A stretch of DNA of 13,444 bases from Bacteroidota bacterium. Lineage in GTDB: Bacteria > Bacteroidota > Ignavibacteria > Ignavibacteriales > Melioribacteraceae. The translations under genes were made by a program, and so were the position numbers. Below the pieces are notes generated by a model. It worked only from the letters and a program-made list of their open reading frames with translations. It was not told where the DNA came from and ran no database searches. Where the stretch lies: positions 1 to 13,444 of the forward strand of contig JAKAHQ010000009.1 of NCBI GenBank assembly GCA_021814855.1, read 5' to 3'. Of the stretch, positions 1,810 through 12,192 are shown one piece after another (position 1 is the stretch's first letter; each line of letters starts with the position of its first letter).

Positions 1810-2253
1810 ATGAAAAAGTTATTTGCAGCAATATTCCTTCCACTTCTCTTTTTGTTAGGATGTCAAAGTTATGAAATGCAGAAGCAAGTAATTCTTTATG
1901 GTTATGACTTTACCAAATATTCTAAAAATAATTTTCTATTCACTCCGGAAAAATATTCCGGCAAATATGAAAGCGTCGGATTAATGTATGTTCTGATGTG
2001 GCCGGAAGTTAAGAAACTGGAAAAAATAAAAAAGAGCGACAATACTTCGTTTGATAGAGTCACCGATTATTACTCGGTGATAAAAATGTCACCAATGGAA
2101 GGATTAGATTCGCTCTACGATAAAGCGATAAAGATGGGCGCCGATTGCATAATGAATTTGGAAATTACTTCTAAGCAAGGAGCCAACGGTCCGGTAGTTT
2201 TTGATTATTATGAACTGTCTGGATTCGCAATCAAGCGGCTGGATGTAAAATGA
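1810..2253 (+). CDS. Lipoprotein with YbjQ/RcsF-like C-terminal segment, 147 aa
   Basis: The N-terminus is a lipoprotein signal peptide: MKK, a hydrophobic core, and a lipobox LLGC with the lipidated cysteine at residue 18. The mature protein would be anchored in the envelope. Residues 97-147 (GLDSLYDKAIKMGADCIMNL...YYELSGFAIKR) resemble the small alpha/beta fold of YbjQ/DUF4156/RcsF-like proteins, in which a helix ending in 'GADxI' is followed by strands ending in a 'xxGxAI+' motif. This is a weak similarity judged by eye. A GGGG-containing ribosome binding site precedes the ATG. The last four bases overlap the start of the downstream HTH gene (ATGA). A surface lipoprotein inside the immunity-type operon suggests lysogenic conversion or superinfection exclusion, which is inference. 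Confidence 0.75.
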   Translation: MKKLFAAIFLPLLFLLGCQSYEMQKQVILYGYDFTKYSKNNFLFTPEKYSGKYESVGLMYVLMWPEVKKLEKIKKSDNTSFDRVTDYYSVIKMSPMEGLDSLYDKAIKMGADCIMNLEITSKQGANGPVVFDYYELSGFAIKRLDVK

Positions 2254-2994: not shown

Positions 2995-3318
2995 TTATGC
3001 AATTATGTAGCAAATTATTAAAATTGCAAAAACAAAATCTGTTACTACTTCCACGTAGTAAGCCCAACTTTTCCACCCGCCTTCGGGTTTGTGTGTGAAC
3101 CAGTCCTCTAACAAGTGAAGATTGTACATTGGTATCAGCCACTTCCACCAAGTATGTCTGTGGAACTTGTTGTAAATAGTCCAATCATCTTTCTTGTCAA
3201 GTAGATGCACCAAATCCGGCAATCCACCCAGTAACGTTGCCGCCGCTAATAATCTGTAGTCGCTTGTAACGGTTGAGCAGATTAAATAACTCTGAACCAT
3301 GTGATTAGGACAAGTCAT
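2995..3318 (-). CDS. Small membrane protein resembling a shortened YdjM/DUF457 hydrolase
   Basis: With the start used here it has 107 residues (MTCPNHMVQSYL...). This ATG overlaps the stop of the 1136-aa fibre gene as TAATG and has GGTGA six to eight bases upstream. An in-frame ATG at 3333 is the alternative and gives 112 aa. The sequence shows a weakly hydrophobic segment with PDLVHLLDKK, then FHRHTWWKW, then YNLHLLEDWFTH, and a C-terminal membrane helix (VVTDFVFAILIICYIIA). The order PD..H, HRHT and HLLEDW.T recalls the conserved His/Asp positions of the LexA-regulated membrane hydrolase family YdjM/DUF457. It is far shorter than that family, so the match is tentative. As the last gene of the tail operon, a lysis or envelope role such as a holin-like protein is also conceivable. 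Confidence 0.6.
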   Translation of the reverse strand: MTCPNHMVQSYLICSTVTSDYRLLAAATLLGGLPDLVHLLDKKDDWTIYNKFHRHTWWKWLIPMYNLHLLEDWFTHKPEGGWKSWAYYVEVVTDFVFAILIICYIIA

Positions 3319-6300
3319 TAGAAACTCACCCATGCCGCCCCATTGTAGAAGACTGGCGTAACTACAGTCCCGCCACCGGTAAGTGCGCCTAAAAATGTTG
3401 GAGCCAAAGCATCTGTTACATAAGCAAAGTCCCCTTGTGTTCCAGTTGGTAAAGTTGCTACGGTGTAATTTTTTAGGTTGCCTGGCGCGCCAAAATTGAT
3501 TTTGTCGGTTGAGGTTATAGCCCCCGAACTAATAGTGCCATTCACTTGTAATTTGTTAACACCATCATCTGTTTGCGTACCAAGAAGAAGATTGCCTCCG
3601 TTAGTCAGTCTTGCCCGCTCCACAAATGACACCACGTTGCCGGCTATACCAGATGTCCCCGTGCTGAATCTATAATCTCCTCCACTCATGGCGAGCAATA
3701 AAGCAAAGCCATTGGCACGATAATAAAAATTCCCCGCCGTATAATAGGAGTTCATGTATAAATCTCCACCTATTTCAGCCTCCCCCGCACTGCGTAGCCG
3801 CCCACTAAAAAAAGTATTCCCCACACTATCAATCGTCGCCACATTTAATGGACTACCGGCATCATTTTGTAAAACCCAACTATTTGACGAAGTAAGTTGC
3901 GTGAATTGAGTACCCGTGCCACCGAGGATTAACGATGGAATATACACCGCCCCATTCAAAAGAGTCTCTGTTACACTACTGTTCCCCAACACAACTTGAT
4001 TGCTTTTTGTGTTTTTCGCCCGCCATCCCAGAGCTATAGCATTTGTTAATTGTGCCGTTGTTGCAGGACCAGTCTCTGTTCCGATCCAAGTATTATAACT
4101 GCCACTTACATTGGCGTTCGCAGAATTTTCCGTCTCTCCAGCATATTTGCCAAAGCCAACATTGCCGCTACCAGTCGTAGTCGAAGTTAGCGCAGCGAAG
4201 CCCATAGCGGTATTATAATCCAGCGTCGTAGTTGATAATGCCATATACCCCGACGCCGTATTCCCCGCTCCAGTATGGTTGCCATAAAGACACTCTGCAC
4301 CCATCGCGGTATTGTAAAAACCCGTTGTTAAATCTCTTAGTGCTTCCCTACCCATCGCGGTGTTATAAGTGCCTATTGTTGTTCCATGTAAAGTTTCTAA
4401 TCCCACCCCAGTATTCCCTTCACCCGTAGTCATAGAGAGCATCGTGTTGGTGCCAACACCAACATTTTGTCTTCCGGTAGTGATGGAACTCAGCACTCCT
4501 CTGCCTAAACCAAGATTGAAAAGCACAGCATCATTCGCATTTTGATATTCACCCCGAAGTTCAAAAAATTTCAACCCACCGGAATCCTCATAGGCAATTA
4601 TGGAATTAGACGATCCAATAACTTGCTTTAACGTCACATTATCTATTGAGCCATTAAAATCAACGGTTGGAGCTATAGCAAACGCAACGATTCCAGATGT
4701 TCCAGCAACCATTGACCTTTGGTAAATCTGGTTAACCGCCATCGTCGTTCCACCGCTACCAACGTCAAGAGTAACCCCCCCAAGAGATATTGAAATACTC
4801 CCAGCAGTTCTTCCCGAAATAGTAATCTCTACCTGATATGTTTGCCCACTTATTACGGTAACGTTTTGGGACAAGGCAACAGTTGAACCCGCAGTATGCA
4901 ACGCTGTCTGAGCACTCCAAGACCAGTTGGTGATGCCAGTCCATCCGGCTAAGTCTGTTGTGAATGTTCCATTTATAATTAGTTCACCTCCTAATGGCGC
5001 GGCTGATTGCGTTCCCCTTGCCGCCAAAGCATTTGTCCCTATCGTAGCTCCACCAAGAGCCAAACTTGTGCCCGCCGCAACTCCCAACGTTGGCGTAATC
5101 AAAACCGGACTTGTAGAAAAAACCAAATTACCCGTTCCCGTTGTCCCCGTTGCGCCGTTAAGGTAATTAAATTGCTGTGGCGTTGTGGTTACGCTTACGG
5201 CACCCAAAGTAAAGGGGGTTGGAATAGTAACAGTACCCGTAAATATTGGGTTGGTAAACATTGTTGCTTTGCTTTCATTGGTAACATTTCCCAAACCAAC
5301 ATCGGTAGCAGTAACAGAAATATTACCAGTTAAAGCATGTCCGTTTACCGTCCTTGTTAAGGGCACATACAACCCAGCCATTTCAGCTTTGAACAAAACA
5401 GAATCCACAAGCGCCATCGTGCCAAGCCCTAAAGATGTTCTTCCGGTAGCCGCAACCAATCCAGTTGCATCACCATCCCACTTTAAGCGGTCGGTGTAAG
5501 CTGTGTTCCAGTTGGTTGAATCGTTCGCTACCGAAATGCTTCTGTTGTAAGCCGTTGACCAGTGAGAACGCAATAATGTCGTTGCCAACGTCGTATCAAG
5601 TTTAGCGCCTAAAAACGTAGTGATTTGTGCTTGAGTATATTTATCATTCCAAACCAAAGCCATTGAATCGCGGGGAATGAAATAAGTCAGAGCTAAAGAA
5701 AACACTCCGCTTGAATAATTTATTCCGGTAATCGTTTCGGAAATTGAAGCCCTCGCCCGCGCATCAGTATAGTAAAGATTTGTTCCCTCCGCCAAATTAG
5801 TGGTCGTCTTCAATCCGAATCTGTTATCAAAGAACGAACTAAATGAAAGAGTGTCGAGCTTCAGATTAAGCGCGGTTTGTGTAGCCGTGGAAATCGGTTT
5901 ATTTAGATCACTCGTATTATCAGCATTGCCTAATCCGACTTGTGCTTTTGTAATCGCATGAGGGTTCGAAACATTTCTTATGTGCGCGTTAACCGTCGAA
6001 CTATCGGACTTTAGATTTAACGCGGTTTGTGTAGCCGTTGATACTGGTTTGTTCGCATCCGAAGTATTATCAACATTATTAATTAACAGTTTTGTCCTCG
6101 CTAAAGAAACGTTAATATTTGATAAACTTGTATCCGCTTTTGCGCCATTAAAAATATCTATCTGAGTTTTTGAATAGAGCGCCTCACTTATAAAATCGTT
6201 GCCGGATCGTTTAACGAATTCACCATTAGTAATCTTAGAAGTATCCACCGGCACATAGCGGGTTCCATCCGCCACAAGCTGAGAACCGTTAAGCGGACCG

Positions 6301-6728
6301 CCGATGTCATACCGGATCGCAATCTCACCGGAAATTATTGTTACATAGTTAGCGGTGCTGCCCACCTTTTGCGCCGATACGTCGTAATAATATTTCGCGC
6401 TAAGAAAATCTTGCGTGTCAGTACTGAGCAGCTTCACGGTAATTGTCGTATTCCCGCCCGCATAGTCGGCGGTGAGTTCCGTCGAACCGCCACCCGCAAG
6501 AACATTACGTTTGCGTATAAGCCGGACGCCCGTCGGAATCTTATCGGACTTAACTACAAAATCCAATTTTTGATTCGCGTAATTGCCCGCAAGCGTGATA
6601 ACCAAATTGGTACTGTCACCGCGCATTATCACCGCGTTCGGACGCGCGAATGTTAAACTCGCAACATTCTGCGCTTGCACAAAACCAATCGCCAACAACC
6701 AATAACCAATAACCAATAACTTTTTCAT
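3318..6728 (-). CDS. Large modular phage tail fibre with signal peptide, 1136 aa
   Basis: Modules in order: an Sec-type signal peptide (MKKLLVIGYWLLAIGFVQAQ, residues 1-20); a beta-rich region (23-140) similar in style to baseplate upper-protein N-domains; two fibre repeats (about 214-241 and 264-292) with VGLGNADNTSDLNKP and ATQTALNLK; a third 'TATDVGLGNVTNESK' segment (474-487); a carbohydrate-binding-like jelly roll (581-703, starting 'IINGTFTTDLAGW' and ending 'GSIDNVTL'); seven 17-residue 'YNTAMG..AL..TTG' repeats (754-870); then shaft sequence with 'NLLLGTQTDDGVNKLQVNG'. The tip reads YTVATLPTGTQGDFAYVTDA...FYNGAAWVSF, a C-terminus familiar from phage fibres. A GAGGTGA ribosome binding site precedes the ATG. 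It is probably a trimeric receptor-binding protein. The signal peptide is unexpected for a virion part and is repeat-encoded. Confidence 0.85.
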   Translation of the reverse strand: MKKLLVIGYWLLAIGFVQAQNVASLTFARPNAVIMRGDSTNLVITLAGNYANQKLDFVVKSDKIPTGVRLIRKRNVLAGGGSTELTADYAGGNTTITVKLLSTDTQDFLSAKYYYDVSAQKVGSTANYVTIISGEIAIRYDIGGPLNGSQLVADGTRYVPVDTSKITNGEFVKRSGNDFISEALYSKTQIDIFNGAKADTSLSNINVSLARTKLLINNVDNTSDANKPVSTATQTALNLKSDSSTVNAHIRNVSNPHAITKAQVGLGNADNTSDLNKPISTATQTALNLKLDTLSFSSFFDNRFGLKTTTNLAEGTNLYYTDARARASISETITGINYSSGVFSLALTYFIPRDSMALVWNDKYTQAQITTFLGAKLDTTLATTLLRSHWSTAYNRSISVANDSTNWNTAYTDRLKWDGDATGLVAATGRTSLGLGTMALVDSVLFKAEMAGLYVPLTRTVNGHALTGNISVTATDVGLGNVTNESKATMFTNPIFTGTVTIPTPFTLGAVSVTTTPQQFNYLNGATGTTGTGNLVFSTSPVLITPTLGVAAGTSLALGGATIGTNALAARGTQSAAPLGGELIINGTFTTDLAGWTGITNWSWSAQTALHTAGSTVALSQNVTVISGQTYQVEITISGRTAGSISISLGGVTLDVGSGGTTMAVNQIYQRSMVAGTSGIVAFAIAPTVDFNGSIDNVTLKQVIGSSNSIIAYEDSGGLKFFELRGEYQNANDAVLFNLGLGRGVLSSITTGRQNVGVGTNTMLSMTTGEGNTGVGLETLHGTTIGTYNTAMGREALRDLTTGFYNTAMGAECLYGNHTGAGNTASGYMALSTTTLDYNTAMGFAALTSTTTGSGNVGFGKYAGETENSANANVSGSYNTWIGTETGPATTAQLTNAIALGWRAKNTKSNQVVLGNSSVTETLLNGAVYIPSLILGGTGTQFTQLTSSNSWVLQNDAGSPLNVATIDSVGNTFFSGRLRSAGEAEIGGDLYMNSYYTAGNFYYRANGFALLLAMSGGDYRFSTGTSGIAGNVVSFVERARLTNGGNLLLGTQTDDGVNKLQVNGTISSGAITSTDKINFGAPGNLKNYTVATLPTGTQGDFAYVTDALAPTFLGALTGGGTVVTPVFYNGAAWVSF
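4119..4469 (-). repeat. Seven 17-residue repeats in the fibre (YNTAMGxxALxxTTGx)
   Basis: Residues 754-870 of the fibre contain seven copies of a 17-residue unit (one copy has 16), starting at residues 754, 771, 788, 805, 822, 838 and 855. Consensus is [YG]NTAMGxxALxxTTGx. The DNA is also partly conserved, for example CCCATCGCGGT at 4300 and 4351, one unit (51 bp) apart. Such repeats are expected to stack as a beta-roll in a trimeric shaft. Confidence 0.8.
4620..4988 (-). other. Carbohydrate-binding-like jelly-roll domain inside the fibre
   Basis: Residues 581-703 of the fibre read 'NGTFTTDLAGW ... LSQNVTVISGQTYQVEITISG ... GSIDNVTL'. This is the start, middle and end signature of CBM4/9/22-type beta-sandwich modules. 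It probably binds a surface glycan. The assignment is by pattern only. Confidence 0.6.
5871..6038. repeat. 18-bp direct repeat 150 bp apart in the fibre gene
   Basis: CGCGGTTTGTGTAGCCGT occurs exactly at 5871-5888 and 6021-6038, 150 bp (50 codons) apart. It encodes part of the duplicated STATQTALNLK fibre module. Flanking bases are similar but diverged, indicating an internal duplication that keeps the frame. Confidence 0.85.
6685..6719. repeat. Heptanucleotide repeat coding the fibre signal peptide
   Basis: The five in-phase units are CCAATCG, CCAACAA and CCAATAA three times. On the coding strand the unit is TTATTGG, whose reading gives the hydrophobic cycle LLVIGYW seen in MKKLLVIGYWLLAIG. 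Confidence 0.85.
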
Positions 6729-6754
6729 TATTTCACCTCAATAATAAAACCTCG

Positions 6755-6770
6755 CTACTTTGTAACTTGA
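6755..6770. repeat. Two octamer units (YWACTTTG family)
   Basis: CTACTTTG and TAACTTGA lie in the gap between the fibre gene and the upstream lipoprotein gene. They are the same family as the five-unit tract at 7058-7097. Confidence 0.5.
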
Positions 6771-6778
6771 ACCAAAAG

Positions 6779-7045
6779 TTATCTTACATCTTCCCAACTA
6801 TTCATTTTGAAAAGTTCGAAGTTTAATTCTTCTATTATTTTGCCCTTCTTAATAATCGCCGAATCAACTTCTGCTCTAGTCTTATATGACCGCGACCAAT
6901 TATCCGGTCCCCAATCATCAACATATCGGAATCGATATTCTTGCGTGAGTTTATTCCGCTGGATTTCAAAATGTGGTTCTATGTATTGCGCCGTCGAGCA
7001 ACCAATGATCAATATCAAACAACAAATAACCAATAACTTTCTCAT
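6779..7045 (-). CDS. Small lipoprotein 1 of the tail cassette, 88 aa
   Basis: The start used is the ATG giving MRKLLVICCLILIIGCSTAQ, because GGAG lies six bases before it. An ATG four codons upstream (7057) would overlap that ribosome binding site. The lipobox LIIGC puts the lipidated cysteine at residue 16. The mature part of about 72 residues is polar and rich in aromatic and charged residues (YRFRYVDDWGPDNWSRSY), with a helical C-terminus (AIIKKGKIIEELNFELFKM). No family is recognised. The signal peptide is encoded by five in-phase heptanucleotides. It lies between the two large fibre genes with two other lipoproteins, so a role in superinfection exclusion, or in anchoring fibre material to the envelope, is possible but inferred. 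Confidence 0.7.
   Translation of the reverse strand: MRKLLVICCLILIIGCSTAQYIEPHFEIQRNKLTQEYRFRYVDDWGPDNWSRSYKTRAEVDSAIIKKGKIIEELNFELFKMNSWEDVR
7002..7036. repeat. Heptanucleotide repeat coding a lipoprotein signal peptide
   Basis: The five in-phase units are CCAATGA, TCAATAT, CAAACAA, CAAATAA and CCAATAA. They encode the hydrophobic core LLVICCLILIIG of lipoprotein 1. Confidence 0.75.
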
Positions 7046-7057
7046 TTCATTCTCCAT

Positions 7058-7097
7058 TAACTTTGCTACTTTGCAACTCGGTAACTCAGCTACTTCT
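7058..7097. repeat. Five tandem octamers at a gene junction (YWACTTTG family)
   Basis: The units are TAACTTTG, CTACTTTG, CAACTCGG, TAACTCAG and CTACTTCT, in 8-bp phase. The tract fills the gap between lipoproteins 2 and 1. It contains the stop codon of lipoprotein 2 (7090-7092). Confidence 0.65.
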
Positions 7098-7494
7098 TTT
7101 CTTCCGCCTTCTTAAATATTTTTACATCCGCTAAATTTTTTTTCTGATCGCCCAGCAATCTAATCGCGGTATCAAGCCGCAAACACGTCGCGTCTTTACT
7201 AGCCGCTTCTTGTATTGTGCTCTCGCTTGTTATGCCTACCAATCCGAGCACATATTTTATTTCACCAATCCGTTGGTCCAGCGACTTCCTATAATTCGCA
7301 ATATCACCGTCAATTGTGCCGGTGTAATTAAATGCCTCGTAACCTTTCAGTTCTTCAGATTTGACATTTGACGTTTGCCCGGCATCCGTTTGACGGGTTT
7401 GACTTTTCACGTTTCCCGAAGCATCTTGCCCCTCAACCGCCGACCAGCAACCAACAACCAACAACAAACAACTAACCGCCAATAACCTTTTCAT
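7090..7494 (-). CDS. Small lipoprotein 2 of the tail cassette, 134 aa
   Basis: The signal peptide is MKRLLAVSCLLLVVGC, with lipobox VVGC and Cys16. An AGGAG ribosome binding site precedes the ATG and follows directly on the stop of lipoprotein 3 (TAACGAGGAG). Residues 27-48 (GNVKSQTRQTDAGQTSNVKS) form a polar low-complexity linker encoded by GTTTGAC-type heptamers. Residues 55-134 look like a helical domain (YRKSLDQRIGEIKYVLGLVG...ATCLRLDTAIRLLGDQKKNLADVKIF), ending in lysines and glutamates. No family is recognised. An outer-membrane spanin was considered, but no inner-membrane partner is visible. Both the signal peptide and the linker are repeat-derived, so only the helical domain may be under selection for function. 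Confidence 0.7.
   Translation of the reverse strand: MKRLLAVSCLLLVVGCWSAVEGQDASGNVKSQTRQTDAGQTSNVKSEELKGYEAFNYTGTIDGDIANYRKSLDQRIGEIKYVLGLVGITSESTIQEAASKDATCLRLDTAIRLLGDQKKNLADVKIFKKAEEKK
7359..7417. repeat. Imperfect GTTTGAC heptamer tract inside lipoprotein 2
   Basis: On the plus strand the units ATTTGAC, ATTTGAC, GTTTGCC, then GTTTGAC, GTTTGAC, TTTTCAC and GTTTCCC are visible. Two short phase breaks occur at 7380-7387 and 7395-7396. They encode the polar linker after the lipobox and match the family at 52-86. Confidence 0.65.
7444..7485. repeat. Heptanucleotide repeat coding a lipoprotein signal peptide
   Basis: The six in-phase units are CCAGCAA, CCAACAA, CCAACAA, CAAACAA, CTAACCG and CCAATAA. 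They encode LLAVSCLLLVVGCW of lipoprotein 2. Confidence 0.85.
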
Positions 7495-7507
7495 TTGTGA
7501 CTCCTCG

Positions 7508-7864
7508 TTAATAAAGTTTTAGAATGTCTATTATGTAGAATTCAATTCGTTGTGCATTTGAGCAATAATTAATTCTAATTACATACCTCTTGTTCGAGGA
7601 ATAAATTTGAATAGGCAAACCCGAATCGGCAGATGTTCTGATTATTTCCGATGCGGTTGCCAAAACAATATTTTTTTCTTCATCCCAGCCCAGATAAGTA
7701 ATAACCAAATCGGAACCATCGAAATTGCCGATGACGCATGATTCGTATTTCTCAAGTTTGAAAGAAGTTTTATTTAGTTTATAATCCTCGCCGTTCTCGG
7801 TGGAATTTTTAGAACAACCAAAAGCAAAAATGAAAAGCATCATTATCAAAAAATATTTTTTCAC
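7508..7864 (-). CDS. Small lipoprotein 3 of the tail cassette, 118 aa
   Basis: The start is GTG, seven bases after a strong AAGGAG that itself overlaps the stop of the 791-aa gene (TAAAGGAG). The lipoprotein signal peptide is MKKYFLIMMLFIFAFGC with Cys17 (lipobox FAFGC). This signal peptide does not show the heptanucleotide pattern of its neighbours. The mature part is predicted mostly beta: alternating hydrophobic segments such as YESCVIGNFDGSDLVITYLG, NIVLATASEII, PIQIYSSNKRYVIRINY and IEFYIIDIL suggest a small beta-sandwich or barrel. No family is recognised. Its position between the tail-tip protein and two more lipoproteins suggests an envelope-located accessory function. Confidence 0.7.
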   Translation of the reverse strand: MKKYFLIMMLFIFAFGCSKNSTENGEDYKLNKTSFKLEKYESCVIGNFDGSDLVITYLGWDEEKNIVLATASEIIRTSADSGLPIQIYSSNKRYVIRINYCSNAQRIEFYIIDILKLY

Positions 7865-7876
7865 AAATGTTCTCCT

Positions 7877-10252
7877 TTAATTATGACTATAGGACCACCA
7901 TTGCGAGCCGGTCCAAAATCCAATTGAACCAGCCGTGCCGATATAGAAGTCGCCCAGTTGAAGATTCGTGGTTGGCGGAGTGTCTGTAATTCCATAAAAT
8001 TTCGGAACATTATAACCATCGATTGCAATGCCACGGGAAGTCGGGTTACAAAACATTTCGAGACGTCTATTAGTATAATATCCTTCTTGATACCAGCGCA
8101 ATCCACCATTGCCGTAGTAACTTCTTATATAAGAACCCCCAAGCATACCGCGTTCATAAAGTCCATTTGTATTTAATATTGAGCCAACAAATGAAGAGGT
8201 GCTATCCAGCGTACTAGTTGAACTGAACGAAGAAGAAAGTATATTCCCTTCCACCGTTAAGCCGGAGAGTTTTGCCACCATATCATTCCCCGTTCCGCCG
8301 TAACCGATGTTCATTAAAAATTTTGAATTCACATTGTCCCAAATTGCAAAGCCATATCTCGCGGCGCCGCCGTCATTGTAACTGCCCGCTTGAACATTTA
8401 ATTTGAGCGCGGAATTATCATACGACTGAATAAGCAACCCGGTTGTGTAACTAGAAAAATTCGAGTTGAGATAAGTCGTTACCGATTTTGTGCCGCTTGT
8501 ATTAGTTTTATAAATACTCGTTGAATTAATATCCCACCCGGCAATAGCCGCGCTTGTAGAAGTTAATTTACCATTCGCGTCCACCGAGAATGCCCCGCTT
8601 CCTAAACTAAATGTTCCGGCCGTTACGGCGCCGAGAGCCGTTATCGCCTTTGCATTTAGGTAAGATGTTGTAACAGTATTGCCGATAATTGTCGTTACTT
8701 CCCCGCTAGTCGTTTTTGTTGATGGATCGTAACCGCTTGCAAATGTAGTTGTGCCGCTGATTGAAATTCGATCCGCGGAAATATCCAATCCCTCGGTCGA
8801 GGCATTTATTTTTGCAATCACGTCCGTGTTTTGGACCGGCGTAAAATTAAGTTGATTCAACGTAACCGTTCCGGTGTAGATGCCGCTTGATGTGATATAT
8901 GTAGTCCACGTTCCCAAATCCGATTGCGTCGGTTTATTCACTCCCGACCAAGTAATATTTCCGGAACTCATCCGGATATTACCCTTCAGATAAACATTCT
9001 GTCCGTAAAGTCCATAACCGCTAAGCGCGCCGAAATCAGTATCGGTTACACCGGAAAGATTTCCAATTCTTAATTTTGTTTTTGACGCCGCAGACCACGC
9101 AGACCAACTGTTTACATCTGTAATCATATCCATAAAAGGAGAATTGGAATCATCTGAAGTGAGATAAATTGAATTCTGTCGCGAAGCCGTAGTTGTGTTA
9201 CCAATCCTTACAACTTCATCGCCCGCTTGAAAGGTGCCGTAAGTATAACTCACAACAGCACTCGCGCCGGTAACGCTTGAAACAGTAGCTTGCACGCTTC
9301 TTAAAACTGTTGCGCCGTCCGGCTTGAATCGCTGTACAATAAGCAGATCGCCCGCCGCAAACGGGCATAGATTAGAATTACTCTCGTCATCGAATGTTAT
9401 CGTTGTTCCGTTTACTGTTTTTACTTTTGCAGATGCCGATACAAATATTGCGCCGTTCGTTGCGCGTATTTGTCTAACCAATAATTCATAGATTGACATC
9501 GTGCCGCGCACGGTAAGGTTGTCAATCTCCATCGAAGACTTTGAAGAGAGTCCGACGCCGTAATCAAGTCTATAACCCGAACCGGCCCACCCGCTTGTAA
9601 AATTATTATAGATTGAATAATTACCCGCTTGCGCAAGATTGCCGTTTAATGTTTGCCCCGCCGTTGTAAAATTTGTCGCCGTCGTTGCAATGTCTTGTAT
9701 CGTGTTCAACCGGTTCAAAGTCAATTTCAAATTTGTCGAGTTAAAATCAATCACAAGAGAATCACCGTTGCGCCGCATCGGATAAGTGGTTAAAATATAC
9801 GGCTGCATTTTTCGGAATTTCAGAATTCCATTGCCCAGCGAATCATAAAGCACACCGCCCGCAATCCGTCCGGTTGATGGATAGTCGTACCATAACCCGT
9901 TTACTTGCGAAGAATCATCTTGAAAAATCGTTCGCTTGGTCCACGTGTTAACTTCCGTCCAGCTTTGCACTTTTGCGAGGTAGCCGATTTTGGTAGAATC
10001 AAATCCCGTCTGAGATGTTATCCGACGCTTCACCCAATTCGTATCGGGATAAGCTCTCGCGCCTCGCGAATAATGCTTAACATGTAACAGCGAATCCGCC
10101 CCGGCAAAGAGATCAATCCAATGGTCATTACCGATTCTAAACGTATCCGCGGACGTGCCTCTATAATCCATATATGCTTGCGCTGAGCTAGTCGAAGCGC
10201 AGACAACCAGCAACCAACCACTAATCACTAATAACCAAACGCTCTTTCTCAT
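7877..10252 (-). CDS. Tail-tip/host-specificity-type fibre protein with signal peptide, 791 aa
   Basis: The N-terminus MRKSVWLLVISGWLLVVCAS...AQA is a signal peptide with a likely signal-peptidase I site after residue 26. No G/A/S precedes Cys18, so it is not a lipobox. Residues 241-430 carry a region familiar from phage tail proteins: DNLTVRGTMSIYELLVRQIR, then an AAGD segment, GDEVVRIGNTTTASRQNSIY, KLRIGNLSGVT and SGYGLYGQNVYLKGNIRM. Residues 475-500 (INASTEGLDISADRISISG) are the usual fibre shaft that follows. The C-terminus (755-791) ends TPPTTNLQLGDFYIGTAGS...WTGSQWW, a tip-like segment. Its ATGA overlaps the stop of the hub gene. It probably forms the tail tip or side fibre and contacts the host receptor. 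The export signal is unusual for a virion protein. Confidence 0.8.
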   Translation of the reverse strand: MRKSVWLLVISGWLLVVCASTSSAQAYMDYRGTSADTFRIGNDHWIDLFAGADSLLHVKHYSRGARAYPDTNWVKRRITSQTGFDSTKIGYLAKVQSWTEVNTWTKRTIFQDDSSQVNGLWYDYPSTGRIAGGVLYDSLGNGILKFRKMQPYILTTYPMRRNGDSLVIDFNSTNLKLTLNRLNTIQDIATTATNFTTAGQTLNGNLAQAGNYSIYNNFTSGWAGSGYRLDYGVGLSSKSSMEIDNLTVRGTMSIYELLVRQIRATNGAIFVSASAKVKTVNGTTITFDDESNSNLCPFAAGDLLIVQRFKPDGATVLRSVQATVSSVTGASAVVSYTYGTFQAGDEVVRIGNTTTASRQNSIYLTSDDSNSPFMDMITDVNSWSAWSAASKTKLRIGNLSGVTDTDFGALSGYGLYGQNVYLKGNIRMSSGNITWSGVNKPTQSDLGTWTTYITSSGIYTGTVTLNQLNFTPVQNTDVIAKINASTEGLDISADRISISGTTTFASGYDPSTKTTSGEVTTIIGNTVTTSYLNAKAITALGAVTAGTFSLGSGAFSVDANGKLTSTSAAIAGWDINSTSIYKTNTSGTKSVTTYLNSNFSSYTTGLLIQSYDNSALKLNVQAGSYNDGGAARYGFAIWDNVNSKFLMNIGYGGTGNDMVAKLSGLTVEGNILSSSFSSTSTLDSTSSFVGSILNTNGLYERGMLGGSYIRSYYGNGGLRWYQEGYYTNRRLEMFCNPTSRGIAIDGYNVPKFYGITDTPPTTNLQLGDFYIGTAGSIGFWTGSQWWSYSHN
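10200..10241. repeat. Heptanucleotide repeat coding the 791-aa protein's signal peptide
   Basis: The six in-phase units are CAGACAA, CCAGCAA, CCAACCA, CTAATCA, CTAATAA and CCAAACG. They encode WLLVISGWLLVVCA. Confidence 0.75.
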
Positions 10253-12141: not shown

Positions 12142-12183
12142 TTATATTTTTATATTCATGTTCATGCTCATGTTCATGCTCAT
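12142..12183 (-). CDS. Possible 13-residue leader peptide abutting the hub gene
   Basis: The frame ATG-AGC-ATG-AAC and so on reads MSMNMSMNMNIKI, and its TAA is immediately followed by the ATG of the hub gene in the same frame. It is encoded by a hexamer repeat. No good ribosome binding site precedes it. It may be a coupling leader or only a by-product of the repeat. Confidence 0.25.
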   Translation of the reverse strand: MSMNMSMNMNIKI

Positions 12184-12184
12184 G
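12155..12184. repeat. Five tandem hexamers (TTCATG/CTCATG)
   Basis: The units are TTCATG, TTCATG, CTCATG, TTCATG and CTCATG on the plus strand (CATGAA/CATGAG on the coding strand). They occupy most of the 51-bp gap between the tape-measure and hub genes and offer an ATG every six bases. Confidence 0.9.
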
Positions 12185-12192
12185 ATCTGCTC

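Follow-up and report, generated by a model that had tools for sequence, protein, structure and literature searches.

The question raised by this locus is why the signal peptides (SPs) of several neighbouring genes should be written in a tandem DNA repeat with a unit of 7 bp, which is not a multiple of three, and whether such a repeat could bring export signals into being. The window, i.e., the whole stretch of 13,444 bases analysed, looks like a part of a phage judging by its PHROG matches: the 1136-aa and 791-aa proteins have matches among the tail-fibre and virion families of PHROG, whereas no Pfam match at E ≤ 0.001 was obtained for the ten window proteins tested. Named relatives of the 791-aa protein belong to Melioribacter, Ignavibacteriaceae and Ignavibacteriota and, further down, to Desulfurellales and Chloroflexota; its middle domain has tail-fibre matches in 61 phage records, 45 of which are Bacteroides phages. 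We infer that the phage host lies in or near the Ignavibacteria. N-terminal SPs are an odd feature on tail-fibre-like virion proteins such as those encoded at 7877-10252 and 3318-6728 of the window and at L128:14950-17433 of a related prophage.

Four heptamer arrays were found on the reverse strand of the window, all of them within the hydrophobic core of an SP. Each was described by TRF and by a lag-7 score, defined as the best match count out of 29 in 36 nt of the SP region. An array of TTATTGG/TTGTTGG units at 6683-6720 lies in the gene of the 1136-aa tail-fibre-like protein (ORF 3318-6728; TRF 5.4 copies, 80% matches; lag-7 25/29), one at 7000-7037 in that of an 88- or 92-aa lipoprotein (ORF 6779-7045 or 6779-7057; 5.4 copies, 67%; 20/29), and one at 7443-7487 in that of a 134-aa lipoprotein (ORF 7090-7494; 6.4 copies, 76%; 25/29). 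The fourth, at 10199-10242 in the gene of the 791-aa tail protein (ORF 7877-10252), is weaker (22/29) and is absent from the TRF list at score 30. In three genes the repeat starts at codon 4, the 791-aa gene being different. The proposal of the first-pass annotation that four neighbouring SPs are written in a 7-bp tandem repeat is thus borne out by TRF for three of them and by lag-7 scores of 20-25/29 for all four. Its count of five to six in-phase heptamers per SP holds as regards the period, which is clear, but not as regards the units, which are degenerate: no more than about three copies are perfect (in the 1136-aa gene). At the 22/29 level, the window contains four period-7 arrays vs none for periods 4, 5, 8, 10, 11 and 13. 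An internal control is provided by the 118-aa lipoprotein with a GTG start (7508-7864, reverse strand), whose SP, as had been noticed earlier, lacks the repeat (14/29).

The 7-bp repeat is real at the DNA level and goes beyond codon choice. Synonymous resampling, with codons drawn from the window's own codon use (5,000 resamples per gene), gave P values of 0.0024, 0.0004, 0.0002 and 0.0010 for the 1136-, 88/92-, 134- and 791-aa genes, respectively, and shuffling of the codon order gave 0.0002, 0.0006, 0.0002 and 0.0002; for the 118-aa control the values were 0.11 and 0.17. The lag-7 scores of the four genes sum to 92; the 5,000 synonymous resamples average 57.6 and never exceed 77, and codon-order shuffling reaches 63 at most. 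Periods 4, 5, 8, 10, 11 and 13 score lower than 7 in the same genes. The synonymous test is conservative, because a DNA heptamer makes the peptide periodic too. The earlier argument that amino acid bias alone would not keep the 7-bp phase therefore agrees with the codon-shuffled controls, which are exceeded in all four genes (P 0.0002-0.0024).

From the point of view of translation, 1,608 of the 2,340 possible heptamer circles are stop-free. TTATTGG reads as LLVIGYW, a peptide correctly described at the outset as hydrophobic, since only 84 of the 1,608 stop-free circles are more hydrophobic; 30 lie above TTGTTGG, 1 above TTGTTTG and 63 above TTGGCTG. The complementary strand, CCAATAA, is interrupted by a stop in one of its frames. 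GTCAAAC gives a hydrophilic reading. As one strand of the window unit is readable and hydrophobic in all frames, the orientation and place of the arrays can be explained by tolerance. This any-frame argument fails for some of the units found in other SPs: TTAGCTT and TTAGCAA, when perfect, run into a stop in one of their frames, and the reading of GGTGGCC lacks hydrophobicity.

Heptamers are not confined to SPs, and a repeat exclusive to SPs was rejected, as arrays also occur in gene gaps and in hydrophilic protein stretches. Two such arrays were found on the reverse strand of the window: one of the GTGAAAN/GTCAAAC kind at 43-96 (25/29; TRF 52-86), within a 53-aa ORF (37-198), at its hydrophilic tail, or in a gap, and one of a second family at 7359-7377 (TRF 2.7 copies, 91% matches), whose coding-strand unit is GTCAAAT, in the hydrophilic linker that follows the SP of the 134-aa lipoprotein. 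Counted per contig, the window has four arrays in SPs and one in the 53-aa ORF or gap, and its relative L069, in assembly G087, has six, one in an SP and five in or at gene gaps (units GTCAAAN then its inverse, ATTGGTN, and AATTCTC). The GTCAAAN array and the inverted TTTGACN array that follows it in the gene gap at L069:3199-3283 fold into an RNA hairpin of -32.3 kcal/mol (z = -6.1), possibly a terminator-like element. In the window and its relatives (34 loci), 13 period-7 arrays were counted vs 0-2 for each of periods 5, 8, 10, 11 and 13; by label, 6 were assigned to SPs, with one gene entering twice, 7 to gaps and none to 324 kb of other coding sequence. One of the 7 gap arrays, in L038, actually belongs to the SP of a gene that runs off the contig. 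The two IMG/VR loci L003 and L027, found by the TTATTGG pattern, bear several other heptamer families each. Six further heptamer arrays with several different units were noticed at L003:2259-7832, within 12.5 kb.

The recurrence of the repeat in other phage contigs, with other units, has been confirmed in L038, in L069 and in three IMG/VR groups. L038, which was found via protein homology and not via the repeat, carries TTAGCNN/TTGGCTG heptamers (20-24/29) in the SPs of four consecutive genes, three of them of 645, 117 and 149 aa and the other truncated at the contig end; a fifth SP gene of L038 has no array. In L069, the SP of the 791-aa homologue has an array with TTGGTTG and then GGTGGCC units. 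Pattern scans of IMG/VR added one SP array each in L027 (451 aa), L099 (773 aa) and L134/L137 (547 aa, a tail-fibre and collagen-like protein), for a total of 12 SP genes with an array across six contig groups. The sense TTRTTGG start pattern retrieved 15 IMG/VR contigs, vs none for the antisense unit after a start; of the 15, two (L027 and L099) bear an array in the SP of a long frame, L109 offers a frame of 15 aa, and the remaining 12 are without arrays. With the TTRGC pattern 8 contigs were obtained: L131, which is the contig of L038 again, L134 and L137, which have a common SP start, and five short or odd frames. Among 36 IMG/VR loci chosen by CCAATAACCAATAACCAATA, one clean SP (L027) was recognized by reading the ORF list by eye; leaving out the arrays used for the choice, the other period-7 arrays of these loci fall in gaps (11), coding sequence (3) and an SP (1). 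A pattern of the SP type (ATG followed by two basic codons, at most 18 bases and then two TTRTTGG units), which is blind to other units and misses the array in G087, matched none of the 294 genomes in the class of G040, a genome with a related prophage. A stricter form run over genome contigs gave 7 loci, namely six ordinary MKKLLVIG starts without an array and a 50-aa all-repeat ORF of Tychonema.

Using 20/29 within the first 84 bases as the array criterion, 9 of the 11 called SP genes of the window, L038 and L069 have an array vs 0 of the 27 other genes (Fisher P 3.4e-7), it being understood that the SPs of one phage are not independent and that the truncated L038 gene was added by hand. The 118-aa GTG-start gene would bring the figure to 9/12; it is missing from these counts, as from those over the 34 loci, because the greedy ORF picker uses ATG starts. 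Without the window, the figures are 5/6 SP genes vs 0/17 others (P 1.8e-4). SPs were called by a heuristic (basic start, hydrophobic stretch and cleavage-like motif, loosened so that ends such as VNGQ pass) and not by a trained predictor. In eight hand-chosen repeat-free relatives, none of the 19 SP genes or of the 94 remaining genes reached 20/29, the top SP scoring 17. Over unselected loci (relatives, G087 contigs, Tychonema stretches and two prophage regions), the array is present in 5 of 99 SP genes, one of them counted twice (L048 and L069), vs 4 of 690 others; the loci of the survey overlap in the pairs L037/L070, L039/L071, L048/L069 and L038/L131. Tychonema, a heptamer-rich genome in which TTATTGG also abounds, was sampled in 18 stretches (331 kb), most of them picked for listed TTATTGG matches, and gave 100 gap arrays, 5 coding ones and none in 20 SP genes; as about 1.7 SP arrays are expected there at the gap density, this zero speaks neither for nor against an SP preference. 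In G087, which holds L069, 19 contigs (191 kb of about 3.2 Mb) were tested. Of the 24 SP genes called on them, the phage gene on C99 has 29/47 lag-7 matches and the other 23 at most 20/47, and the SP set as a whole has no lag-7 excess (z = 0.9). The same contigs contain four period-7 arrays, none of them in an SP when coordinates are compared by eye, together with one array of period 8, one of period 13 and four of period 16.

Did the repeat create the SPs? It had been suggested that the spread or slippage of the repeat next to a start codon would generate export signals, and that orthologues with an SP and no DNA repeat would count against the whole idea. Such orthologues exist: the homologous genes in L037, L071, L073 and the prophage L128 have an SP and no array at the DNA level, and L128 also keeps the gene order (630-aa homologue, large protein with SP, small SP gene). 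Among the listed homologues of the 791-aa protein, 26 of 120 have an SP by the heuristic, one of these being the window's own protein; at the protein level, 24 of the 26 show 0-2 residue matches at lag 7, and only the window protein and P0015 show a 7-residue periodicity (5 matches). As homologues devoid of heptamers still have an SP, the SPs of the window probably do not owe their origin to the repeat and would be older than it. LLVIG-like SPs are kept at the protein level in the nearest relatives P0134, P0135 and P0015. In the orthologues of the 134-aa lipoprotein, the mature part is conserved and the SP end and linker vary; P0134, 81% identical to it, has no cysteine at the lipobox position and a shorter linker. 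The SP ends and linkers of two further orthologues, P0137 and P0138, resemble other heptamers (GTCAAAN) at the protein level, and the LSVISCQ of P0138 is close to LSVISYQ, given in PMC4679880 as the translation of reversed TAACTGA repeats. Used as a query, the 630-aa protein gave no IMG/VR or phage locus, and its alignment gave 3 loci (3/395 and 3/294 genomes, the same three). The 134-aa alignment had no match in IMG/VR and one weak match in 79 genomes; in G075 only a weak match was obtained, with no period-7 array in 20 kb.

The repeat class itself is already known from bacteria. According to two studies, most of the bacterial genomes examined have more heptamers than any other long simple repeat, slippage tied to a 7-nt polymerase contact has been proposed as their origin, and repeat units in multiples of three are the likeliest in coding regions (PMC4692102, PMC4679880); a protein might tolerate heptamers at either of its ends (PMC4679880). 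The arrays described here resemble the heptanucleotide STRR/SSR of cyanobacteria, Xanthomonas, Beggiatoaceae and some Bacteroidetes in their 7-bp unit, which in the window stands out from other periods, and in the presence of several families and degenerate copies, and may also resemble them in a mostly intergenic location; in Tychonema, 1,609 matches of TTATTGGTTATTGG with at most one mismatch were counted. Unlike those repeats, several arrays of one phage lie inside the SP codons of neighbouring genes, and related phages carry other units at the corresponding place. Heptamers in SP codons are not reported in any title or abstract of the open-access literature searched, including searches on phages, coding regions and the peptide LVIGYW. 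Helicobacter pylori outer-membrane genes have SP switches made of CT repeats, likewise in SP codons, but the unit is a dinucleotide, it switches and it does not belong to a phage. The closest precedent for non-triplet repeats in an SP is the CTCTT repeat of Neisseria opa, a unit that is not a multiple of three in the leader-peptide code of surface proteins (PMC3960869, PMC3899988); opa tracts vary in number and switch expression, whereas those of the window are short and degenerate.

This likeness invites the idea that 7-bp slippage shifts the frame and so switches the production of tail fibre and lipoproteins, as in opa. The non-triplet repeat does lie in SP codons of surface-type proteins, but a long near-perfect tract is missing (67-80% matches and 5.4-6.4 copies in the three TRF-listed arrays, of which no more than about three are perfect), none of the four frames is broken, and by comparison with known switches the tracts would be too few and too degenerate for fast slippage; phase variation is accordingly improbable. 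The repeat might instead act in RNA or translation, for instance by binding a factor or by pacing translation where exported proteins begin; in Beggiatoaceae, a translational role has been suggested for TAACTGA repeats that lie upstream of start codons (PMC4679880). We give this reading less credit still, as the units differ among related phages and homologous operons have no arrays. Least credible is a mimicry of the heptamer by SP amino acid and codon bias alone. SPs are rich in leucine and valine, and L071 and L073 reach 17/29 without a clear array, but the codon shuffles disfavour this reading, the other periods do worse in the very same genes, and the eight hand-chosen repeat-free relatives have no SP gene at 20/29.

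A stronger candidate than these, and yet an unlikely one, is that the repeat serves as a recombination tract through which exported proteins encoded side by side in the operon exchange SPs or have them overwritten, lipoprotein and ordinary SPs alike. The unit is common to the SPs within a phage and different between phages, the SPs of one phage are similar in DNA, and the 134-aa orthologues keep the mature part and differ in SP end and linker, down to the cysteine missing at the lipobox position in P0134. Over 60 nt from the ATG, the 1136-, 88- and 134-aa genes share 67-73% DNA identity and two L038 SPs share 68%, part of which may come from the common unit and the start codons (ATG-AAA), the control being a plain shuffle; moreover, the SP of the 791-aa protein is only 25-32% identical to the others of the window. 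These similarities suggest some copying between neighbouring SPs. The wider proposal, that heptamer tracts in the SP core drive a fast SP turnover in phage operons for exported tail proteins and lipoproteins by expanding, recombining between neighbours and swapping SP types while the mature proteins are conserved, is one to which we would likewise assign a small probability.

The explanation we favour, with a confidence somewhat above even, is that heptanucleotide repeats of a known class expand and survive in gaps and in loosely constrained SPs, perhaps being copied between neighbouring SPs. The arrays are heptanucleotide simple tandem repeats, a class over-represented in bacterial genomes, and would arise and expand through copying errors. 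In the relatives sampled they persist in gaps, whereas inside genes they are almost restricted to places where their translation can be tolerated. T/G-rich units fit the SP core because their coding-strand reading is hydrophobic, and the hydrophilic GTCAAAN sits in a linker or tail. The DNA likeness of three window SPs and of the L038 SPs suggests that local duplication or conversion may have spread an SP already repetitive, and the homologues suggest that the SPs themselves predate the repeat. Against tolerance, the SPs of repeat-bearing relatives are denser in arrays than the gaps, beyond what tolerance by itself would predict, although in small and non-independent counts, and the 20 SP genes of Tychonema are free of arrays in a heptamer-rich genome.

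The repeat is thus real and recurrent, ordinary in kind and unusual in place. Repeats of seven nucleotides have mostly been regarded as curiosities of the spaces between bacterial genes. In the present case they have entered coding sequence more than once at a single kind of place, the SP core: three related phage contigs have them there, each with its own unit, as do three IMG/VR groups found by pattern. This offers a natural assay of how heptamer repeats arise and spread. It also calls for caution: where the SPs of adjacent genes look alike, or a phage and a cyanobacterium do, the cause may be repeat DNA and not protein ancestry.

Two minor features of the window complete the description. 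The 147-aa lipoprotein at 1810-2253 (forward strand), which has no heptamer repeat, matches phrog_19292 weakly, and by eye it and the lipoprotein encoded at L128:905-1318 are alike. A 6/12-bp repeat of the TTCATG type occupies positions 12155-12192, immediately upstream of the 630-aa gene.
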